This document shows positions 2-26,501 of a stretch of DNA of 55,545 nucleotides, in pieces. The stretch covers positions 1-55,545 of the forward strand of contig JAAYOL010000053.1 of the NCBI GenBank assembly GCA_012520395.1. Reading direction: 5' to 3'. A program made the position numbers and the translations under genes. The first letter of the stretch is position 1; each line of letters opens with the position of its first letter. Origin of the DNA: Clostridiales bacterium (GTDB lineage Bacteria; Bacillota; Clostridia; Oscillospirales; Oscillospiraceae). Below the pieces are notes generated by a model. It ran no database searches. It had not been told where the DNA came from and worked only from the letters and a program-made list of their open reading frames with translations.

Positions 2-586
2 ATACGGGAGCTGACCCGCTACCCCGCCGTTGAGAGGATAGACATGGTAGAGATAGACGAGCTTGTGGTCGAGGTCTGTAAAAAGTACCTGCCCCAGACG
101 GCCAGCCGCTTCGATGACCCGCGCGTGAATCTCTACTTTGAGGACGGATTGAAGTTTGTCCGGCGAAAGAGCGAGGAATACGACCTGATTATCGTTGATT
201 CCACAGACCCCTTCGGTCCCGGCGAAGGGCTTTTTACAAAGGAGTTTTACGGCAACTGCTTCAAGGCCCTCAAAAAGGACGGCATCATGGTAAATCAGCA
301 TGAGAGCCCCTTTTACGACAATGACCGTATTGCCATGCAGCGGGCGCACAAGCGTATAGTCGAAAGCTTCCCAATAAGCAGGGTTTATCAGGTGCACATA
401 CCGACCTATCCGTCCGGACACTGGCTTTTCGGCTTCGCATCTAAGGAATACCATCCCGTTGAGGACTTAAACGCCACCGCGTGGAACCTTCTCGGGCTTA
501 AGACAAAGTACTACAATACGAAGCTGCATGTCGGAGCATTTGCTCTGCCGACCTATGTGGAGGAGATACTGAGAGATGTTGAATAA
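2..586 (+). CDS. speE: Spermidine synthase, 5' end outside window
   Basis: This is the C-terminal part of a polyamine aminopropyltransferase, which moves the aminopropyl group of decarboxylated S-adenosylmethionine onto putrescine to give spermidine in the cytoplasm. The frame is open from base 2, and the first residues (IRELTRYPAVERIDMVEID) are the Rossmann-fold nucleotide-binding strand of the family, so the true start lies upstream and the internal ATG at 44 is not the start. Further family marks are the DSTDPFGPGEGLF active-site loop, NQHESPFY and TYPSGHWLFG. The stop overlaps the start of the agmatinase gene by 11 bases, which indicates an operon with translational coupling. The N-terminal beta domain cannot be seen. 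Confidence 0.93.
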   Translation: MRELTRYPAVERIDMVEIDELVVEVCKKYLPQTASRFDDPRVNLYFEDGLKFVRRKSEEYDLIIVDSTDPFGPGEGLFTKEFYGNCFKALKKDGIMVNQHESPFYDNDRIAMQRAHKRIVESFPISRVYQVHIPTYPSGHWLFGFASKEYHPVEDLNATAWNLLGLKTKYYNTKLHVGAFALPTYVEEILRDVE

Positions 587-25264: not shown

Positions 25265-25283
25265 ATGCTGATGGGGTGGTTTG

Positions 25284-25886
25284 GTGGCCGAAAACTATCA
25301 AAAAATGCTTGAAGATACCATAAACGCGCTCGGAGACAGAACACCGAGTCTGCTGCTGCATGCCTGCTGCGCCCCCTGTGCGAGCTATGTTCTCGAATAT
25401 TTAGCAGAGCATTTTTCGGTCACGGTTCTTTACTATAATCCTAACACCCATCCCACCGCGGAGTATGAAAAGCGCCTTTGTGAGCTGAAAAAACTCCTCT
25501 CGCTGCTCAAAACCAAAAACCCTGTGAATCTGCTTTGCGGCGAGTACAATCCCGGTGCGTTTTACAAGCTTGTCAGCGGCCTTGAGGCTGAGCCTGAAGG
25601 GGGAGGACGCTGCCGCTTATGCTTTGACCTTCGTTTGGAGGAAACTGCAAGGCTCGCCAAAGAAGGTAGATTTGATTACTTTACAACCACTTTGACTGTG
25701 AGCCCGTACAAAAGTGCCGCTGTGATAAACACCGTCGGCAGGAATATGAGCGAAAAGTATAGAGTTCCCTACCTTTACTCGGACTTTAAAAAGCGCGACG
25801 GCTACAAACGCTCGATAGAGCTGTCAGACAAATATGGACTGTACCGACAGAACTACTGCGGCTGCGAATTCTCAAAGCGGGGGTAA
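25284..25886 (+). CDS. queH: Epoxyqueuosine reductase QueH
   Basis: A 200-residue iron-sulfur enzyme (former DUF208) that reduces epoxyqueuosine to queuosine in the wobble base of tRNAs with GUN anticodons. The cysteine signature is complete: LLLHACCAPC, CRLCFDLRLEETA and NYCGCEF; FTTTLTVSPYKSA lies between. Start GTG 25284 (or the adjacent TTG 25281) with ggggtgg upstream; VAENYQKMLEDTI resembles the usual N-terminus. The following gene is the queuosine-precursor transporter queT, so uptake and late maturation are paired. Confidence 0.92.
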   Translation: MAENYQKMLEDTINALGDRTPSLLLHACCAPCASYVLEYLAEHFSVTVLYYNPNTHPTAEYEKRLCELKKLLSLLKTKNPVNLLCGEYNPGAFYKLVSGLEAEPEGGGRCRLCFDLRLEETARLAKEGRFDYFTTTLTVSPYKSAAVINTVGRNMSEKYRVPYLYSDFKKRDGYKRSIELSDKYGLYRQNYCGCEFSKRG

Positions 25887-25899
25887 ACGGGTATAATTA

Positions 25900-25992
25900 T
25901 ATTAGCAAATCAATCACGACAGGTGCCATAACCCTGTCGAGGGGCAAGGCGGGATTGTCATCTCCGATTTGCCCGAGAATAAAAAAATGGAG
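25900..25992 (+). promoter_or_regulatory. Structured leader before queT, candidate preQ1 riboswitch
   Basis: A 7-bp hairpin cgacagg/cctgtcg (25917-25939, 9-base loop) is followed by gggcaa/ttgccc (25942-25974). GCAAATC at 25905-25911 can instead pair with GATTTGC at 25966-25972, and CAATC 25911-25915 with GATTG 25953-25957, so alternative or pseudoknotted folds exist. A ctcc at 25962-25965 is complementary to the ggag ribosome site at 25989. preQ1-III riboswitches are known upstream of queT in Ruminococcaceae; class assignment here is inference. Confidence 0.5.
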
Positions 25993-26000
25993 TGAAAAAT

Positions 26001-26501
26001 TTGAAAAATCTTACCGTCCGTAAGCTGACCTTTATCGCGGTCATTGGTGCCTTGTACACCGCACTCACCGTGGCCCTTGCGCCCATCTCCTATGGCCCGG
26101 TCCAGTTTCGTATCTCAGAGGTCCTGTGCATCCTGCCGTTTTTCTACCCGTCAACAATGTGGGGACTGTTTGTCGGCTGCGCCCTTTCCAACCTGTTTGG
26201 CGGCTACGGACCCCTCGACATTGTTTTCGGCTCGCTGGCAACGCTAGCAGCCGGGTTTTGCACCTCAAAGATACGTTTTCGCCCGCTAGCCCTTTTGCCG
26301 GTGGTCCTGTTCAATGCTGTGGTCGTGGGAGCGGTCATTGCCTGGTCATCAACTCCCGGGGCGTTCTGGGCAGGCTTTACCGTAAACGCCTTTCAGATAG
26401 GTCTCGCCGAGTTCGGCGTCATGTATATTATCGGACTGCCCCTGCTCTATATATTACCGAGATACAAATTTTTTAATAAGCTTAGAGATGCCCTTGCATA
26501 A
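26001..26501 (+). CDS. queT: Queuosine precursor transporter QueT
   Basis: A 166-residue membrane protein (COG4708), the substrate-binding S component of an ECF-type importer for preQ1 or related bases. About five hydrophobic segments; characteristic stretches are FIAVIGALYTALTVALAPISYGPVQFRISE, FYPSTMWGLFVGCALSNLFGGYGPLDIVFGSLAT-type sequence and NAFQIGLAEFGVMYIIGLPLL. TTG 26001 is preferred because ggag lies eight bases upstream; the GTG at 25992 overlaps that site. It needs an ECF energising module encoded elsewhere. Confidence 0.9.
   Translation: MKNLTVRKLTFIAVIGALYTALTVALAPISYGPVQFRISEVLCILPFFYPSTMWGLFVGCALSNLFGGYGPLDIVFGSLATLAAGFCTSKIRFRPLALLPVVLFNAVVVGAVIAWSSTPGAFWAGFTVNAFQIGLAEFGVMYIIGLPLLYILPRYKFFNKLRDALA

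Follow-up and report, generated by a model that had tools for sequence, protein, structure and literature searches.

The leader of queT in this stretch of a Clostridiales genome (55,545 nt in all, hereafter the window) is very probably a preQ1 riboswitch of class I, the smallest class known, with an H-type pseudoknot, in a variant form that lies outside the Rfam model of the class and carries a hairpin inserted in L3. This assignment, which we derive from sequence comparison, draws on the conservation of the element, covariation in P1, alternative P2 partners, its link to queT and a salvage-type gene set. A sequence-only reading of the same DNA had proposed a preQ1 riboswitch leader for queT, naming class III, a divergent class or a new one. 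A riboswitch of preQ1 type acting on the ribosome site indeed provides the best explanation of the data, but class III does not fit; the guess of a divergent class came closer, as the element is divergent, yet as a variant of class I. As far as our searches extend, the variant is ordinary in principle and new in form and host group, and no account of it in print was found in the open-licence literature.

A conserved pseudoknot core in the queT leader

In all five genomes of the window's genus, queT is preceded by the consensus CGACAGG-UGCCAUMAC-CCUGYCG ... A7-UGGAG, with AAAAAAATGGAGTG directly before the start codon, and this conserved core reads as an H-type pseudoknot (Table 1). Its P1 stem is the perfect 7-bp hairpin CGACAGG/CCTGTCG (25917-25939) that the sequence-only reading had noticed in the queH-queT gap, together with a second stem (25942-25974) and the ribosome site GGAG, both of which are also present. 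Within the genus, the P1 3' strand takes the form CCTG(T/C)CG, with one A-C mismatch in L003 and L005, and the P1 loop the form TGCCAT(A/C)AC; the window's own loop also occurs in L126 (G105) and L179, which lie outside the genus. The motif AAC-CC, that is, a C before the P1 3' strand and a G-C pair closing P1, is found in the window and kept in five of five genus members, and an A-rich L3 tail (A7 in the window) precedes P2. By analogy with characterized class-I elements, C25932, the C of the A-C step before the P1 3' strand, would be the partner of preQ1.

The alternative pairings suggested earlier fared less well. Complementarity between GCAAATC (25905-25911) and GATTTGC (25966-25972), between CAATC (25911-25915) and GATTG (25953-25957), and between ctcc (25962-25965) and the ggag of the ribosome site is present in all three cases, but the re-pairing segments are not conserved. 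The first pair is absent from L002 and L004, and enforcing it costs about 6 kcal/mol (-24.2, versus -30.4 when P1 and the second stem form), which argues against a switch of that kind. The pairing that does recur had not been named: it joins CCAU in the P1 loop to AUGG in the tail, and two of the P2 pairs so formed, C25926-G25990 and C25927-G25989, include the first two bases (GG) of the ribosome site. Taken singly, the window's P2 is weak, with only 4 bp and about -1.9 kcal/mol, and 23% of shuffled loops also give 4 bp in a single-sequence test; the folding energy of the leader is barely unusual (z -1.99; 10 of 200 shuffles equally stable). Aligning the tails on GG rather than on the A-run shifts the P2 register of the window's genus by one base against its relatives.

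Table 1. Features of the queH-queT region in the window
Feature	Position	Strand	Basis
queH (epoxyqueuosine reductase), upstream gene	25281..25886	+	Pfam PF02677, 231.6 bits
Promoter-like site TTCTCA-17-TATAAT (-10 box 25892-25897)	25869..25897	+	Consensus scan
P1 5' strand CGACAGG	25917..25923	+	Sequence; identical in 5/5 same-genus leaders
P1 loop UGCCAUAAC	25924..25932	+	Sequence; same in L126, L179
P2 5' strand CCAU	25926..25929	+	Within P1 loop
P1 3' strand CCTGTCG	25933..25939	+	Sequence; differs in L003 and L005 (one A-C mismatch)
L3: linker, inserted hairpin, A-run (47 nt)	25940..25986	+	Sequence and relatives
Hairpin inserted in L3, adjoining P1	25942..25974	+	-17.2 kcal/mol alone
A-run of L3 tail	25981..25987	+	Invariant A columns, short-L3 alignment
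P2 3' strand AUGG	25987..25990	+	Pairs with 25926-25929; 51/54 distinct cores with 4 loop-tail pairs
Ribosome-binding site GGAG	25989..25992	+	Sequence
queT (ECF transporter S component)	26001..26501	+	Pfam PF06177, 145 bits; start by relatives

Survey of queT leaders

The queT gene was found in 240 of 300 family genomes. For the survey we assembled 217 leaders: 120 among the family matches listed, 30 genus and order loci (including some other families of the order) and 67 of 80 named loci, the remaining 13 being dropped as duplicates; most of the named loci belong to Oscillospiraceae (Oscillibacter, Dysosmobacter, Papillibacter, Intestinimonas and MAGs). We scanned the first 150 leaders with a descriptor that demands P1, a C preceding its 3' strand, a helix between loop and tail, and a tail rich in A. 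It matched 93 of them, whereas each of five dinucleotide-shuffled sets gave 12-25 matches; at a score of at least 32 the counts are 58 against 0-2. A P2-blind search for P1 plus an A-run and GG tail retrieved 91 of the 217; after removal of loops not ending in AC or ACC or not 8-10 nt long, and of L133 (loop mispicked), the AC-type layout remains in 78 leaders, mostly from Oscillospiraceae. Both searches demanded the C and the G-C closing pair, so that the wider counts are not independent on these two features. A type-I-like loop (TTCG...TCC) occurs instead in about 33 of the 217 leaders, and at some loci queH and queT lie back to back with no leader (e.g. L006, L009, L011).

In all 54 distinct cores compared among relatives, P1 pairs 1-5 are standard, most of them with several pair types; P1 covaries, in that its pairs vary yet stay paired. 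A 4-bp loop-tail pairing is seen in 51 of the 54 cores, a level attained in 6 of 2000 trials when tails are shuffled among cores, the margin being modest because most cores share TCCA/TGGA. The P2 partners nonetheless change together, as TCCA/TGGA, CCAT/ATGG, CCAA/TTGG and CCCA/TGGG, and as CCT/AGG over 3 bp; the window type, CCAT/ATGG, also occurs outside the genus in L126 and L179.

Model searches

The Rfam library gave no match on the window at its curated scores, and a covariance-model check with the three preQ1 families (RF00522, RF01054 and RF02680), as the sequence-only reading had suggested, returned none at E <= 10 in 25700-26150. Across the 300 family genomes, no RF00522 match exceeded the curated cut-off (gathering score 39). 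The yhhQ leader of E. coli K-12 (L243, 4176-4211), an element of solved structure, likewise gave no RF00522 match at E <= 5. The RF00522 model therefore does not cover type III, and hence not the whole of class I, and since the E. coli type III element is missed too, the silence of Rfam on the window is no argument against class I. As a separate observation, RF00522 gives 20-32 bits, under the cut-off, to preQ1-I elements of type-I appearance (L049, L063, L075 and L032-L039); several of these, L049, L063 and L075 included, lie upstream of queT in the same family.

A dedicated model, R1, was built from 15 short-L3 or short-hairpin sequences, four of them from the same genus and none from the window. 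It matches the window at 25915-25994 with 42.1 bits (E 3.8e-10), the runner-up in the window reaching 10.9 bits. Given this match and the presence of the core in five of five genus genomes, the leader is clearly beyond chance as a conserved element, and only marginally so by folding energy. In the 300 family genomes, R1 yields 43 matches at E < 1e-3, all read as lying just before queT, with the match in G066 placed there only by a QueT-like N-terminus. At this last locus (L249), the queT gene after the element seems to run in two frames, a possible frameshift or assembly error.

R1 also reaches the type-I-like L075 (18.1 bits) and L227 (18.9 bits), the latter an element before queT with loop UCGCAGACAC and 32.6 bits for RF00522, which we take to be of the T. 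tengcongensis kind (Tte-like). In 391 genomes of the class, eight R1 matches pass E 0.001, two of them in the same family (the window's own and G024). None of the other six (E 2e-4 to 9e-4) lies before queT, with the ORFs named by eye, and one of them, L268, has no long ORF nearby. A spread of the element beyond the family was accordingly rejected, as these six look like chance matches to a hairpin plus A-tail. A second model, R2, built from 11 sequences outside the window's genus and with the tail of L179 misplaced in its alignment, ranks the site first in the window at 14.8 bits, a score that is not significant (E 0.073). What ties the loop of the window to the most frequent one is the pair of intermediates TGCCATAAC and TGCCATCAC, from other genera, together with the shared layout, and not the R2 score.

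Comparison with known preQ1 riboswitches

As described in PMC11625349, class I combines P1, a preQ1-pairing C before the P1 3' strand, a G in the P1-closing pair and an H-type pseudoknot. Following type definitions that originate in McCown 2014, as relayed by PMC11625349 and PMC10622847, AC before the P1 3' strand marks types II and III, and UC type I (PMC11625349). The same source presents type III as almost confined to Pseudomonadota, with UU after the P1 5' strand, a pyrimidine-rich loop and a fully masked ribosome site. Among published elements, the one closest to ours in geometry is E. coli type III. The leader of E. coli yhhQ reads ATTGGG-TTCCCTCAC-CCCAAT-GGTTAATC-AAAAAGG, and its P2 consists of U11-A28, C10-G29 and C9-G30 (PMC10622847); set in a common register, the loops are UUCCCUCAC in E. 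coli, UUUCCACAC in the relatives and UGCCAUAAC in the window. The likeness extends, as far as PMC10622847 describes the E. coli element, to a loop of 9 nt on top of P1, AC ahead of the P1 3' strand, a P2 at loop places -4, -5 and -6 (counted back from the P1 3' strand) that takes in the GG of the ribosome site, an A-run just before P2, a spacer of variable length separating P1 from the A-run, and probable control of translation. The window even has U at place -4 with A opposite, as in E. coli, where most relatives have A-U.

In contrast to the gamma-proteobacterial host and yhhQ of the E. coli element, however, the present one belongs to Oscillospiraceae (Bacillota) and queT, its loop differs from the E. 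coli one in the window and relatives alike, its P2 is CCAU/AUGG, and L3 holds one or more stems, the L3 of the window being far longer than any described in the cited papers. The UU after the P1 5' strand, shared by types I and III, is found in most family relatives, whereas the window and its genus have UG, and pyrimidines make up five of the nine loop bases in the window and seven of nine in relatives with UUUCCACAC. With the layout of type III, but with UU missing and both host and gene different, we file the element under class I and assign no finer type. With type II (T. tengcongensis, B. subtilis) it shares AC before the P1 3' strand, the G-C top of P1, an A-rich L3 and the H-type pseudoknot, and differs in loop sequence, in a P2 whose pairing over the ribosome site is complete, and in the long, stem-bearing L3. 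With type I, as in the Listeria queT leader reported in PMC12519234, it shares the position before queT and a probable translational mode, although type I places UC before the P1 3' strand and its leaders surveyed here have a TTCG.. loop, against AC and a 9-nt loop in the window. One further leader of the family, L103 (G110; 84-131, minus strand), has loop TCCCCTAAC and tail AAAAAAGG, with a CCU/AGG P2 as in E. coli type III.

The other preQ1 classes compare poorly. The position before queT in Clostridia, a related host group and a length of about 90 nt would suit preQ1-III, and the statement that this class occurs before queT in Ruminococcaceae, which the sequence-only reading had made, agrees with PMC11625349. 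Nevertheless, preQ1-III is built on two pseudoknots and five stems over about 100 nt, whereas here we see neither a 5' strand that pairs into a P2-P3 junction nor an arrangement of five stems, and relatives go down to some 40 nt; the single P1 hairpin, whose loop would pair with the A-rich tail and the ribosome site, is a class-I layout. RF02680 matches neither the window nor any of 150 family genomes, the latter in a search in which no positive control gave signal, and we regard preQ1-III as extremely improbable. The long-L3 forms resemble preQ1-II in outline, in that the loop of P1 pairs with a tail over the queT ribosome site and a hairpin lies in between, and class II also controls queT (PMC11625349). 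That class, too, is very improbable, given the absence of an RF01054 match, the loops of 8-10 nt ending in AC and the relatives with no inserted hairpin and an L3 of 8-12 nt, which class II does not allow as described in PMC11625349 (four pairing regions and nearly twice the size of class I).

Structured insertions in L3

The genus includes leaders with an L3 of 12 nt between the 7-bp P1 and P2 and no inserted hairpin (L002 and L004), leaders with 27 nt and a shorter hairpin, AAGGC/GCCTT (L003 and L005), and the window, with 47 nt. Across the 78 leaders, L3 up to the GG ranges from 9 to 106 nt and holds zero, one or two inserted stems. It is shorter than 20 nt and unstructured in 13 of them; in the other 65 it is longer and always folds (mean z -3.3 versus mononucleotide shuffles). 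At the short end, L172, L182, L204, L220 and L223 are minimal class-I pseudoknots with an L3 of 8-12, the whole element being as short as about 40 nt in such relatives. The idea that a constant length of L3 remains once the stems are removed was rejected, the mean residue being 16.8 nt against 16.1 with shuffled inserts.

The joint CTCTAAA or TTCTAAA is found in the inserts of 39 leaders, mostly two-stem. In 15 of these leaders, picked for the joint CCAAG and moderate length, the two-stem insert covaries, with changes on both sides in 8 of 15 predicted pairs. Two-stem inserts (L020, L019, L073, L094 and others; 39 leaders) have the invariant joints CCAAG, TTCGTTC and GTTCTCTAAA, which are conserved more than a mere spacer needs. 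A second A-run and TGGA tail lies inside the L3 insert of L150 (256-367), L017, L174, L224 and L258, and all five also contain CCTCC ahead of the actual ribosome site. These double-tail leaders are likely a variant of the riboswitch that works as a relay (anti-anti-ribosome-site), in which preQ1 would trap the first tail, free CCTCC and thereby mask the ribosome site.

Such diversity allows a bolder proposal, which we put forward tentatively and consider possible rather than probable: the Oscillospiraceae elements may constitute a separate fourth subtype of class I, with L3 as the site where structured domains grow. These domains would be none, one hairpin (as in the window), the covarying two-stem domain with its conserved joints, CCAAG-P3-UUCGUUC-P4-GUUCUCUAAAC, and, within one group, another A-run and UGGA tail with an anti-ribosome-site strand (CCUCC), giving a relay in place of direct masking. 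The inserts would adjust binding or the logic of the switch, with possible contact to a second factor.

Gene context and proposed mechanism

The likely start codon of queT is TTG 26001, 8 nt after GGAG, rather than the mechanically called GTG 25992, since the latter overlaps GGAG and L004 has ATG at the matching place. In the window leader, the promoter consensus scan gives one site, against 0.7 expected from shuffles, and its -10 box ends 19 nt before P1. A -10-like box is found in 61 of the 78 relatives' leaders, against 25-41 of 78 shuffled upstream stretches, and in 40 of the 61 it ends 6-7 nt upstream of P1, which suggests that the aptamer probably forms the very 5' end of the queT message. 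A P1 hairpin at this end would also protect the RNA, and the element could in principle be a translation-tuning pseudoknot or a protein site that answers to no ligand. We consider this highly improbable, because the features kept beyond pairing (GG/CC at the upper end of P1, the AC that precedes the P1 3' strand, and the A-run) are the parts that hold preQ1 in class I, and because the element is linked to a preQ1 gene. A terminator was looked for in the window leader and none was found, which makes translation control the likelier mode of a class-I switch at this locus. Elsewhere in the survey, TPP riboswitches lie downstream of queT in L172 (2962-3071) and L204 (2945-3054), and L024 (3020-3236) contains a T-box leader below threshold (75.2 bits versus a cut-off of 93).

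All five genomes of the genus have queT, which queH adjoins there, as well as tgt and queA; queF was found in none of the five, in a search in which control genomes gave signal, and no convincing queC was found in them, the weak matches (19-31 bits, in three of five genomes, inside larger frames) being read as other ATP-pyrophosphatases. With tgt, queA and queT present, queF absent and queC unconvincing, preQ1 salvage fits the genus, and tgt, queA and queH make up the route from imported preQ1 to queuosine. We infer preQ1 as the ligand, although queuine, preQ0, epoxyqueuosine or queuosine could be recognized by the same fold. Carriers of the QueT type are not uniform in what they transport, and PMC11130926 reports that one C. 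difficile QrtT carries only preQ1 and the other preQ1, queuine and queuosine; moreover, loop place -8 is G here, where E. coli has a U in contact with the ligand layer (PMC10622847). A different ligand is nevertheless unlikely, since the genus keeps tgt, queA and queH and the C before the P1 3' strand is retained; preQ0 in particular could not be converted to preQ1 in a genus that lacks queF.

With preQ1 as ligand, the class-I switch would operate as follows. The RNA would start at or just before P1, which would form at once. When preQ1 is plentiful, it would pair with C25932 and sit between P1 and the P2 helix; CCAU would close on AUGG, with the A-run lying along P1, so that the GG of the ribosome site would be buried and translation of queT, and with it preQ1 uptake, would stop. 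When preQ1 is scarce, P2 would open and QueT would be made. The inserted hairpin would take up the slack in L3 and have no part in binding.

If this interpretation is correct, the natural series formed by leaders with no insert, one hairpin, two stems or a relay would let the effect of L3 on binding and switching be measured, whereas in the cited papers L3 was altered in a single E. coli construct, by no more than a small number of bases (PMC10622847). It would also mean that class-I preQ1 riboswitches with the ribosome-site masking of E. coli type III are common in a large family of Clostridia living from the salvage of queuosine precursors, and that the public RNA library misses them.
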